Assembly: GCF_013423785.1 (NCBI RefSeq)
Contig: NZ_CP058952.1
Location: 1,577,665 to 1,641,664 of the forward strand
Direction of reading: 5' to 3'
Length of the DNA stretch: 64,000 nucleotides
Origin: Chitinibacter fontanus
GTDB taxonomy: Bacteria > Pseudomonadota > Gammaproteobacteria > Burkholderiales > Chitinibacteraceae
Part shown: positions 34,204 through 37,415 of the stretch, piece by piece
Layout: each line of letters begins with the position of its first letter
Position numbering within the stretch: the first letter of the stretch is position 1
The notes under the pieces: generated by a model
What the model was told of the DNA's origin: nothing
The model's database searches: none
The model's input: the letters and a program-made list of their open reading frames with translations, nothing else
Position numbers and translations under genes: made by a program

Positions 34204-34674
34204 TTAACCCAAACCCTGATTATTTTTCAGCACTTTGCCAATTTCACGCAGCACCGACTGCCGCCCTGCCGCATCTTGCAGTTGCTGCGGTAAATACCGC
34301 AGCACGGCATTACCATGGGGGTCGATCAAATACAGTCCACTGGGCATCACTCGATCAGGCGGCAAACAGGCCGTCACCGCGAGGCGTTGCTGATCTCGCC
34401 CCTGCGCCAGTCGCAATTGCCGCGCCGACTGCAACAGCGGGGCCAAATCAGCATTCGCAGCGCCAGCCGAGGTGCATTGCGATTCAATATGCGCCAACAA
34501 TTGCCAAGTACGTTGTGCGCTAGGAGCAACCATTGGCTGCGCTAATAATTGGCCATAGGTGTCACCCCCTTGCGGGCGCGCATAGTGCCAAGCCCATTGC
34601 GCAAGCCCTAGCGGCGCAATACATAGACCCAGTATCACCATTAGAACCAATCTGGATTTAGCTTTAGCCAACAT
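34204..34674 (-). CDS. cox-cluster membrane-anchored protein, Sco/thioredoxin-like remnant
   Basis: 156 residues with an N-terminal membrane anchor (LVLMVILGLCIAPLGLAQWAW). The C-terminal part has YLIDPHGNAVLRYLPQ, as in the last strands of SCO/thioredoxin folds, but no CxxxC metal site is present. Proteins of this kind sit between surf1 and ctaA in many beta- and gammaproteobacteria and are assumed to help oxidase assembly. Function unproven. Stop and start codons are nearly contiguous with both neighbours. Confidence 0.75.
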   Translation of the reverse strand: MLAKAKSRLVLMVILGLCIAPLGLAQWAWHYARPQGGDTYGQLLAQPMVAPSAQRTWQLLAHIESQCTSAGAANADLAPLLQSARQLRLAQGRDQQRLAVTACLPPDRVMPSGLYLIDPHGNAVLRYLPQQLQDAAGRQSVLREIGKVLKNNQGLG

Positions 34675-34677
34675 ACT

Positions 34678-35388
34678 CTAGCCTCTTAAATAGTGGCGAC
34701 GGAACAAATAGGTGCCAATCAGCGCCAACAACCCCCAAGTCAGCGCATACGCCCAATGCCTAGCAACCCCAAAAGGCCGCTCAGGCTCAATGGCCAACAA
34801 GCCTGAGCTGGCCTGATCTGCCAGCGCATAGGCCTCTGGCAGCGGCAAATAGGCCCAGGCAGCAAAACGACCAGGGTCAAGATTTTGAAAAACCCGGCCT
34901 TCAACTGTGTTGCCTCCTAGCTCCATATACCGTGGCCAGGCCTGCGCTACCACTTTGGGAGCGGCTTTTGGAGTGGGTGGAATGCCTTGCTCCTGCACAT
35001 TCCACCAGCCACGATTGACCATCACGATGACCCCATCCTGTAACTGAAATGGCGTAATGATGTGATAACCCACCTTCCCCGCACGGACACGGTGATCGAG
35101 CCAAATTTCATATTGCGGCAACCACTGACCTTGCAATTGCACTGGGCGCCATAAGGGCGGGCTCCCCCTGCTCCAATGCATCATCGGCAAACTTTGTAAG
35201 CGAGCAATCTCGGCGAGTTGCAGCTGTTTTTCATGCGCCCGCCATATTTGCCAAACACACAATAGGCTGGTCAATATAATCATGGCCACCAGCATGATCG
35301 CACCCTGCCATTGTTTCCCGCGCAAAGTAGCCTTGGTTTGCCTAGGCTGAAGCTGAGGAGGATTTGGAATGAAAATTGTCGCCATCAT
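34678..35388 (-). CDS. surf1: SURF1 family oxidase assembly protein
   Basis: 236 residues from the tandem ATG ATG at 35383-35388, with AGGAG just upstream. Two membrane helices (about 30-50 and 205-225) flank the SURF1 soluble part (WRPVQLQGQWLPQYEIWLDHR, GYHIITPFQL, VMVNRGWW). Needed for heme a insertion in cytochrome oxidase. A longer frame to 35592 lies entirely antisense to the DUF2909 gene and has no SURF1 character. Its 5' end overlaps the divergent DUF2909 gene by about 20 bp. Confidence 0.88.
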   Translation of the reverse strand: MMATIFIPNPPQLQPRQTKATLRGKQWQGAIMLVAMIILTSLLCVWQIWRAHEKQLQLAEIARLQSLPMMHWSRGSPPLWRPVQLQGQWLPQYEIWLDHRVRAGKVGYHIITPFQLQDGVIVMVNRGWWNVQEQGIPPTPKAAPKVVAQAWPRYMELGGNTVEGRVFQNLDPGRFAAWAYLPLPEAYALADQASSGLLAIEPERPFGVARHWAYALTWGLLALIGTYLFRRHYLRG

Positions 35389-35545
35389 GCTGCTCCTTGC
35401 TATCTTGCTCTCGCTGGGGCAGGCCTTACTGCGTTTGATTCGCGGCGCATCTGGCCCGATGTGGCGGATGCTCGCTTGGCGCGTCGGTCTGTCGTTGGGC
35501 TTATATTTCTTGCTGCTGCTTGCGCACTGGCAGGCTTGGCTGTAG
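35369..35545 (+). CDS. DUF2909 twin-transmembrane protein
   Basis: 58 residues, beginning MKIVAIMLLLAILLSLGQAL and ending HWQAWL. It has two membrane helices joined by a basic loop (RLIRGASGPMWRMLAWR). GAGGAGG lies seven bases before the ATG. DUF2909 genes commonly sit between coxC and surf1. Here it is on the opposite strand to the whole cox cluster, so the cox mRNA is antisense to it, and its start overlaps that of surf1 head to head. Confidence 0.8.
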   Translation: MKIVAIMLLLAILLSLGQALLRLIRGASGPMWRMLAWRVGLSLGLYFLLLLAHWQAWL

Positions 35546-35661
35546 CACGCAGATGCTCTGTTTATAGCCTGCAAGCGCGCGCCGCTGATCACCTAAAGAC
35601 TAAGGTAAAAACCCTACACAAACTGCACTCAACTGGCTGGCAACATCACGACCAGCACCGC

Positions 35662-36528
35662 CTAGAGCACATAAACAAATACAAATAACCCTAACCACAC
35701 CACATCGACAAAATGCCAATACCACGCGGCGGCTTCAAAACCAAAGTGCTGTAACGGCGTAAAGTGCCCCCGCTGTACCCGCAACCACATGGTAGTTAAG
35801 ATCAATGTTCCGACCAGCACATGCATCCCATGAAACCCAGTCAGTAAATAGAAGGTCGCGCCGTATGCACCTGATGCCAAGGTCAGCTTAAGCTCACTCC
35901 AGGCATGCTGATATTCGTACGCTTGCAAACACAGAAATAACACTCCAAGCACGATCGTGAGACCCAAGCCTAGGCTTAAAACTCGGCGTTGCTGTTGCAA
36001 CAAGCCCCAATGCGCCCAAGTTAGGGTGACACCGGAGGTCAACAATAATGCCGTATTGATTGCTGGCAGACCAAACGGATGCATAGCTTGGTAAGCCGCC
36101 GATTTAGGCCCCGTCGCCATCGGCCAATCGGCCTGAAAATTTGGCCATAACATTCGTTGCGTTTCACTAAAAAAGCCCAGCTCCGGAACCGAAATAGTGC
36201 GGGTATAAAACAAGGCGCCAAAAAAGGCGGCAAAGAACATGACTTCAGAAAAAATAAACCAGCTCATTCCCCACCGAAAGGAATAATCCACCTGCTGGCC
36301 ATAGCTACCACTTTCAGACTCGTGCACCACATCACCGAACCAACCGATCAACATCCACAGCAAAACACCAGCCCCAATCAATAGCACCCATCGCCCACTC
36401 GCTACCTGATTGATCGCTAAGGCCGCGCCAAGCCCCAAACAAAATAGTGCCACCGCACCGACGATGGGCCACCGTGAAGGTGATGGCACAAAATAATGTG
36501 CATCATGAACTGCGTTCTCTACATTCAT
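35662..36528 (-). CDS. coxC: cytochrome c oxidase subunit III
   Basis: 288 residues with seven membrane helices. Visible are HYFVPSPSRWPIVGA at the start, the long SGVTLTWAHWGLL segment, YLLTGFHGMHVLVGT and AAWYWHFVDVVWLGLF at the end. It is a structural subunit of the aa3-type oxidase. A 28-bp gap separates it from the DUF2970 gene. Confidence 0.95.
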   Translation of the reverse strand: MNVENAVHDAHYFVPSPSRWPIVGAVALFCLGLGAALAINQVASGRWVLLIGAGVLLWMLIGWFGDVVHESESGSYGQQVDYSFRWGMSWFIFSEVMFFAAFFGALFYTRTISVPELGFFSETQRMLWPNFQADWPMATGPKSAAYQAMHPFGLPAINTALLLTSGVTLTWAHWGLLQQQRRVLSLGLGLTIVLGVLFLCLQAYEYQHAWSELKLTLASGAYGATFYLLTGFHGMHVLVGTLILTTMWLRVQRGHFTPLQHFGFEAAAWYWHFVDVVWLGLFVFVYVL

Positions 36529-36556
36529 TGCTCACCTCCTACCTTGTGCCGTTGGC

Positions 36557-36730
36557 CTACTGTTGCGTAGTCACCAGCGTATGTACCAAGCCCCACACCA
36601 ACAGCGCCAAGAGCAAACCGCACAACAATCCGGCCACCAATAGCTGCCAAATCTGAACTGGCCGCCGTGATTTTTCCCTGCTGCGAACGCCAAAAAAAGC
36701 GGCCAATACTGCTTTGATGGCCGTCCACAT
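36557..36730 (-). CDS. DUF2970 small membrane protein
   Basis: 57 residues, beginning MWTAIKAVLAAFFGVRSREK and ending LVHTLVTTQQ. It has an N-terminal amphipathic part, the DUF2970 basic motif and one C-terminal membrane helix (LLVAGLLCGLLLALLVWGL). It lies in the usual place between ctaG and coxC. Its ATG starts one base after the ctaG stop. Probably an assembly or stability factor of the oxidase; function not established. Confidence 0.85.
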   Translation of the reverse strand: MWTAIKAVLAAFFGVRSREKSRRPVQIWQLLVAGLLCGLLLALLVWGLVHTLVTTQQ

Positions 36731-36731
36731 C

Positions 36732-37274
36732 TCAGCTCTCCCTCACTTTGTGTGTAAAAGCTGGGATGGCTTGCAAGCTATACGACAAAGTTGCCGCGCC
36801 CATTTCAGCGGGCAATGATTTGGCCACCAGCAAAACCACCGTGACCTCGCGCTGCTCATTGCCCGCCAAACTCATCGCGTTAAAGCAAAAACATTCAAGC
36901 TTTTGCAGCACACCGGCCGCACGTACTGGTGCAAAACTCGGTACGGCACGTAAATACACGGGTTGATCTGATTCGTTGCGCAGCACAAAGCGCGCCTTCA
37001 CCTGCCCGCCAGCTTGCGCAACTTGCACGCCATCCAAAGCCTGCATCGTTACGGGTAAATCGGCGGCAACATTGACATCAAACTCAACTCGCAACGCGCT
37101 ACCCGCTTGTGTGAGGCTGGCGTTGGCCCGATCAATGCCTAAAAATTGGCAAAACGAGGCGTAAAACGGCGCTAAGGCATAGCCAAATCCAAACATCAGC
37201 GCAGCGACCAAGGCTAATTTAATCGCCAATCGCTGGTTTTGTTTCGTGATGATACTTACATCAATCGCAGCCAT
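36732..37274 (-). CDS. ctaG: cytochrome c oxidase assembly protein CtaG/Cox11
   Basis: 180 residues from the ATG at 37274; an upstream TTG at 37298 is in frame. One N-terminal membrane helix (LALVAALMFGFGYALAPFYASFC) is followed by the Cox11 periplasmic copper-binding domain with the C-F-C motif KLECFCFNAMSL. Delivers copper to CuB of subunit I. Confidence 0.94.
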   Translation of the reverse strand: MAAIDVSIITKQNQRLAIKLALVAALMFGFGYALAPFYASFCQFLGIDRANASLTQAGSALRVEFDVNVAADLPVTMQALDGVQVAQAGGQVKARFVLRNESDQPVYLRAVPSFAPVRAAGVLQKLECFCFNAMSLAGNEQREVTVVLLVAKSLPAEMGAATLSYSLQAIPAFTHKVRES

Positions 37275-37319
37275 ATACCCACCAATGTATTCAGCCAAAG
37301 CGCTTATTTAAAAAGAGCT

Positions 37320-37415
37320 TTAACTAGATACCCATAGTTGACGTGCAATAGCGACCAGAAAAAACAGCAACGCCAGCAGTAGTAGTTTTAATGCCGTTTT
37401 CAGATTGGCACTCAT
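37320..37415 (-). CDS. 31-residue cytochrome oxidase small assembly protein
   Basis: The frame begins [20 protein letters not shown] and ends IARQLWVSS: a short basic start and one membrane helix. The ATG overlaps the coxA stop codon (ATGA), a sign of translational coupling. Beta-proteobacterial cox clusters often have such a tiny membrane protein between coxA and ctaG, annotated as a small assembly protein. Confidence 0.7.

Follow-up and report, generated by a model that had tools for sequence, protein, structure and literature searches.

The overlap between the DUF2909 gene and surf1 in the 64,000-nucleotide stretch of Chitinibacter fontanus DNA analysed here (the window) is the most compressed form of a conserved arrangement in which a small gene associated with the cytochrome oxidase (cox) genes is kept reversed, and we consider it likely that the two genes are a divergent pair, unusually compact, that borders the cox operon. 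Across most of the class relatives sampled, this operon appears to stop at coxC, in many cases at a terminator that the convergent DUF2909 gene uses as well, and DUF2909 would then have a promoter of its own, situated in the roughly 64 bp that separate it from surf1. Within the window's family (Chitinibacteraceae) these bases are mostly gone, so that the starts overlap by 2 to 17 bp, and in the window's genus and its sister genus both Shine-Dalgarno (SD) sequences are retained inside the opposite gene, with surf1 initiation restricting the choice of codons in DUF2909. The DUF2909 protein would be made independently of the long cox mRNA; we infer that the two genes are transcribed separately in the window organism, with no dedicated switch between them. 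Read-through from cox, as proposed in the first-pass annotation, may occur here, is not required and is apparently not the general rule.

The cox cluster of the window occupies the reverse strand and contains coxB (with a cytochrome c at the C-terminal end of its product), coxA, ctaG/cox11, a DUF2970 gene, coxC, surf1, a PA0111-like gene, ctaA and ctaB, with the 58-codon DUF2909 gene on the forward strand between coxC and surf1 (Table 1). The DUF2970 gene (57 residues; 36557-36730, reverse strand; PF11174, 40.1 bits) lies between ctaG/cox11 and coxC, and DUF2970 family readings were obtained in 74 of 80 CoxA loci. DUF2909 begins at the ATG at 35369-35371 and surf1 offers tandem ATG codons at 35388 and 35385, giving a head-to-head overlap of 20 bp from the former and 17 bp from the latter. 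The DUF2909 SD is spaced 7 bases from its ATG, that of surf1 4 bases from ATG 35388 and 7 from ATG 35385. The head-to-head overlap at 35369-35388 described in the first-pass annotation, with each ribosome site embedded in the opposite gene, is borne out, both by the sequence and by the 17-bp start being kept in all ten genomes of the window's genus and sister genus that carry the pair. With starts and SDs conserved and coding regions overlapping, the two have the features of 5'-overlapping genes and, as judged from sequence, the overlap is under constraint and both genes are genuine. The surf1 reading frame is open back to 35592, so its start is called from SD and conservation rather than from a stop codon.

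Table 1. Features at and around the DUF2909/surf1 junction (positions in the window).
Feature	Position	Strand	Remarks
DUF2909 gene, 58 aa, two predicted helices	35369..35545	+	PF11137 51.6 bits (cut-off 31.4), profile 1-60 of 60; reversed with respect to cox genes
DUF2909 SD AGGAGG	35356..35361	+	Antisense to surf1 codons Pro-Pro
surf1 from favoured second ATG	34678..35385	-	PF02104 88.6 bits (cut-off 23.4); start at 17-bp overlap kept in 10/10
surf1 SD AAGGAG	35393..35398	-	Antisense to DUF2909 codons 9-10 (CTC CTT)
17-bp head-to-head overlap	35369..35385	.	Extends to 35388 with first ATG
Candidate weak -10 TAGGCT for DUF2909, within surf1	35343..35348	+	Read by eye
Convergent gap, DUF2909 stop to coxC stop	35546..35661	.	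Without convincing terminator
coxC (subunit III), cox gene preceding DUF2909	35662..36528	-	PF00510 208.5 bits
PA0111-like redox protein gene, downstream of surf1	34204..34674	-	NF058629 35.8 bits, E 7.2e-9, below cut-off 230

The reversed strand of DUF2909 is a trait of the class (in the GTDB sense, i.e. with betaproteobacteria included), and what had been noted for the window, a DUF2909 gene running against its cox cluster, is conserved across the class sample. PF11137 was detected in 50 of the 61 relatives, in 219 of the 369 genomes of the class and in 64 of the 299 of the phylum, 61 of these 64 belonging to the window's class. The relatives search led to 52 places, of which 51 were read, the remaining one (L081) being a weak second hit; for the 219 genomes matched in the class search 90 places were read, mostly top-ranked, and weaker members outside the family are under-sampled. 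Of the 135 distinct loci that contain both genes, 133 have DUF2909 diverging from surf1, the exceptions being L091 (opposite strand, with domain bounds outside the rule used) and L093 from genome G084, the sole locus with both genes on one strand, SURF1 being downstream of DUF2909. Where coxC is present (123 of 141 loci) it is invariably on the strand opposite to DUF2909 and adjoins it; the other 18 loci have no coxC in the stretch examined. A set of 80 named records fetched through CoxA, partly independent of the other loci (L146/L025, L147/L022 and L213/L124 are the same loci under different ids), gave the order coxC, reversed DUF2909, surf1 in all 68 loci having the three genes. The remainder comprises one locus with DUF2909 and coxC only and 11 without DUF2909, seven of which, all titled Nitrosomonas (L185-L188, L204-L206), keep coxC and surf1 in order with no DUF2909 between them.

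DUF2909 can also exist outside the cox cluster, since in L030, L089 and L099 the 1.5-2 kb read to either side of it contains no coxC and no recognisable surf1; the gene opposite it in L099, head to head, appears PA0111-like by eye. On the Burkholderia multivorans plasmid NZ_CP143553.1 (L263:4492-4704) a DUF2909 (twin transmembrane helix) gene is found in a stretch with no cox gene, its neighbours being hydrogenase-4/formate hydrogenlyase genes and a Tn3 transposase, and a similar protein is encoded on six Burkholderia plasmid records. Genome G042 has two SURF1 genes (L005, L142), of which one adjoins DUF2909 and the other lies behind an oxidase subunit III gene, with a small same-strand ORF, CyoD-like by eye, between them.

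Unlike the class-wide orientation, the overlap is local to the window's family. With starts picked by SD, the two genes overlap in 29 of 33 family loci vs 1 of 98 elsewhere (n = 131, after removal of the duplicates L000 and L145, six loci without SURF1, three without DUF2909, L049, L050 and L091, which have no callable start, and the same-strand L093). The family overlaps measure 17 bp in 13 loci, 8 bp in one and 2 bp in 15; in these last 15 of the 29 the surf1 start lacks an SD, and the 2-bp value arises because the rule favours the more downstream ATG. The median gap between DUF2909 and surf1 in loci outside the family is 64 bp.

That the cox mRNA must cover the DUF2909 gene in antisense, as the first-pass annotation had it, is unsupported as stated, given the terminators found after coxC in related loci. 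Intrinsic terminators were sought in 160 of 191 coxC-DUF2909 gaps (25-700 nt) at a threshold of -9 kcal/mol, and one in the cox direction was detected between the two stop codons in 107 of the 160 loci vs 16 of 106 shuffles (every third locus, two each). The corresponding figures for the DUF2909 direction are 67 of 160 vs 17 of 106; terminators in both directions are present in 64 of the 160, and 53 have none over threshold in the cox direction. These predictions suggest that in many relatives cox transcription probably stops short of DUF2909. In the window, the best cox-direction hairpin of this gap is long and irregular (-8.0 kcal/mol), none is found in the DUF2909 direction, and a consensus scan of 34600-37400 returned three terminator-like sites; all three lie within coxC, and shuffled sequence gave more. 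Within the window's genus, G003 (L080) has a strong two-way terminator (-15.2 and -19.2 kcal/mol), which is absent in the other three genus genomes with the pair. Amongst the seven Nitrosomonas loci, L185 and L187 show a hairpin and T-run after coxC by eye, and the other five something weaker or nothing.

Obligatory read-through is weakened further by the promoter-like element that DUF2909 possesses outside the family; with a terminator before it and such an element of its own, the cox mRNA need not cross the gene. Upstream of DUF2909 in 102 loci outside the family, sigma-70-like sites score a mean z of 0.95 (sem 0.10) vs -0.02 on the reverse strand. The signal comes largely from TATAAT/TATACT hexamers 40-59 nt upstream (41 strong -10 hexamers sense, 12 antisense), and the -10 element lies inside or at the edge of the gap, crowding the surf1 start. 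For surf1, no promoter enrichment was found in relatives (z 0.07, 101 loci), and strong -10 hexamers number 3.6 per kb of gap in its direction vs 7.25 in that of DUF2909, i.e. a surf1 signal is weak at best. Neither gene shows promoter enrichment within the family (DUF2909 z 0.19, surf1 z -0.49), and the consensus scan of 34600-37400 in the window gave no promoter-like site of sigma-70 type for either. As to individual candidates in the window, the putative -10 TAGGCT, missed by both the promoter scan and the -10 scoring, is matched by TAnnnT at that spot in 8 of the 10 genomes of the two genera, and TATAAT at 35275-35280 is unconserved; both are matches to a consensus only.

The principal alternative is a non-contiguous operon or excludon, in which a coxB-coxC transcript would cross DUF2909 in antisense to reach surf1-ctaA-ctaB, and pairing with the DUF2909 mRNA would make the two outputs reciprocal. 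The layout matches the definition given, in the portion of PMC7154746 available, for menE-menC-MW1733-ytkD-MW1731 of S. aureus, and the strikingly conserved orientation of DUF2909 speaks for it, as does the window's coxC, which lacks a good terminator. The want of a clear surf1 promoter, in relatives and window alike, appears to be the main remaining point for read-through from cox. Against this stand the terminators after coxC in relatives and in G003, the hairpins that L185 and L187 keep between coxC and surf1 even where no DUF2909 intervenes, and the prediction for P. aeruginosa, in an extract of PMC5436846, of a four-gene operon coxBA-PA0107-coxC. Read-through into surf1 is possible in the window organism, because neither a good terminator nor a sigma-70-type site is found there, but we regard the non-contiguous operon as an unlikely description of the system.

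A function for DUF2909 is suggested by its likeness to HIG1/Rcf (PF04588), cytochrome oxidase factors that, like DUF2909, have two helices of similar length. The DUF2909 model has helices at 2-26 and 30-55 (mean pLDDT 74.7, pTM 0.39). A DUF2909 profile (58 of 82 non-redundant proteins; 137 callable) aligned with a HIG1 profile, built from proteins of proteobacteria outside the window's class (21 of 27 readings, 30 loci), with an hhalign probability of 91.7 and an E-value of 7.9e-7 over 58 columns covering both helices. DUF2970, a small membrane family of cox clusters used as control (25 of 74 readings), reached a probability of 0.7 against DUF2909 and 0.4 against HIG1. One locus (G558 C16:179707) passes both Pfam cut-offs, for DUF2909 (34.4 vs 31.4) and for HIG_1_N (44.8 vs 22.4). 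The window protein itself stays below the PF04588 cut-off, its only Pfam match being to DUF2909, and in single-sequence HMM searches 2 of 58 DUF2909 proteins touched HIG_1_N (E <= 1; best E 0.0049), and unrelated membrane families in that list scored at least as well. The QRRQ motif of type 2 HIG1 (as defined in the accessible part of PMC7762129) is absent from DUF2909, whose only invariant columns are L35, R38 and S42; of the motif the central Arg (R38) alone survives, with S42 aligned to a motif Gln. Given the missing motif and the weak single-sequence matches, we do not file DUF2909 as a HIG1 member.

A search of solved structures with the DUF2909 profile gave one chance match (E 1.3) and Foldseek with the model a best E of 5.0. 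VIA-align over six chains, none of them HIG1, gave Z scores of 6.1-7.4 to YnaI and EncB, which are in the range of common helical arrangements and so uninformative on family. DUF2909 is said to bear COX4 signatures in the part seen of a paper treating SURF1 with DUF2909, and, in an excerpt of PMC13137333, a DUF2909 gene of Ca. Thiodiazotropha endolucinida is among 36 genes in the top 100 transcribed in three hosts. In view of the HIG1 similarity and the cox context, an accessory role in the oxidase appears likeliest, and DUF2909 is probably a small two-helix, HIG1-like accessory or assembly protein.

A further reading would combine this likeness with the layout, making DUF2909 both the gamma/betaproteobacterial counterpart of HIG1 and a class-wide antisense attenuator. 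Transcription from cox would leak past the coxC terminator and supply surf1 and the heme A genes, transcription of DUF2909 from a promoter of its own would stop the leak through collision and antisense pairing, and the window's genus, with its terminator mostly undetected and its starts overlapping, would represent the tightest form. If true, a subunit-like protein would set the supply of assembly factors; we hold this quite improbable.

Returning to the divergent pair, the register of its overlap was examined in the window's genus (6 genomes) and the sister genus (5), where the pair is present in 10 of 11 genomes, G004 having no match to either PF11137 or PF02104. In all ten, surf1 has a start that makes the overlap precisely 17 bp (GTG in G002 and G003, ATG in the other eight), preceded at 6-7 nt by AAGGAG or AGGAG, and the first ATG, at the 20-bp position, is found in just four. 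The constancy of the 17-bp start, with which the GTG cases and the spacing agree, favours 35385 over 35388 as the likelier surf1 start. Codons 9-10 of DUF2909 read CTC followed by CTT or CTA in all ten, whilst flanking residues and other Leu codons vary. With one representative for each of six lineages, which are related, so that p values are indicative, CTC occupies codon 9 in 6/6 vs 8/82 of the Leu codons beyond codon 12 (p 5.5e-6), CTT/CTA occupies codon 10 in 6/6 vs 16/82 (p 1.4e-4), and the third base of codon 5, which completes the antisense surf1 start codon, is C in 6/6 vs 48/164 fourfold sites (p 8e-4). These figures are evidence that surf1 initiation constrains DUF2909 codons 5, 9 and 10 in the two genera. 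Conservation of the SURF1 peptide TIFIPNPP cannot be counted as separate support, since its residues are for the most part imposed by the start and SD of DUF2909.

It is for that reason no proof of translation either, which leaves some room for a surf1 start further downstream, e.g. at TTG 35325, with the overlap an annotation artefact and the genes merely abutting. An in-frame TTG is present at the equivalent place in 8 of the 10 genomes, in the window with AAGG 5 bases upstream; the other seven, however, have an SD match of at most 3 nt there, and the ATG or GTG with SD at the 17-bp position in every genome, together with the codon constraint, makes such a start highly improbable. Least probable of all is chance compaction without constraint, in which a C before the start codon gives CATG and hence a free antisense ATG: although 15 of 33 family loci show just a 2-bp overlap without surf1 SD, it is disfavoured for the two genera, where start codon, SD and spacing are kept while nearby DUF2909 residues change, and the register is retained though DUF2909 of G002 and G003 is 6-7 codons longer near its N-terminus.

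A small gene kept reversed between coxC and surf1 throughout a class offers a natural test of regulatory layout against frozen gene order, and the codon-level signature shows how a ribosome site can persist within an oppositely oriented gene; the HIG1-like similarity, in turn, suggests a function for a family that usually adjoins coxC. Among the matches listed in the literature on DUF2909/PF11137, PA0109 and SURF1, we found none describing the reversed strand or the overlap. The P. aeruginosa cox cluster PA0105-PA0114 is similar in gene content, and we take PA0109 to be its DUF2909 gene, an assumption that extends to its strand. PA0105-PA0108 and PA0112-PA0114 are as described in the extract of PMC5436846. 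The non-contiguous operon of S. aureus (PMC7154746, in part) likewise has one gene reversed in a functionally linked cluster, as DUF2909 is here; in contrast to menE-menC-MW1733-ytkD-MW1731, a predicted terminator lies between coxC and the reversed gene in 107 of 160 relatives. Divergent gene pairs with a 5' overlap share the embedded ribosome sites and overlapping first codons, so that the DUF2909/surf1 pair is nothing categorically different; what is specific to this lineage, compared with ordinary divergent pairs, is the exact 17-bp register and the constraint on SD and codons.
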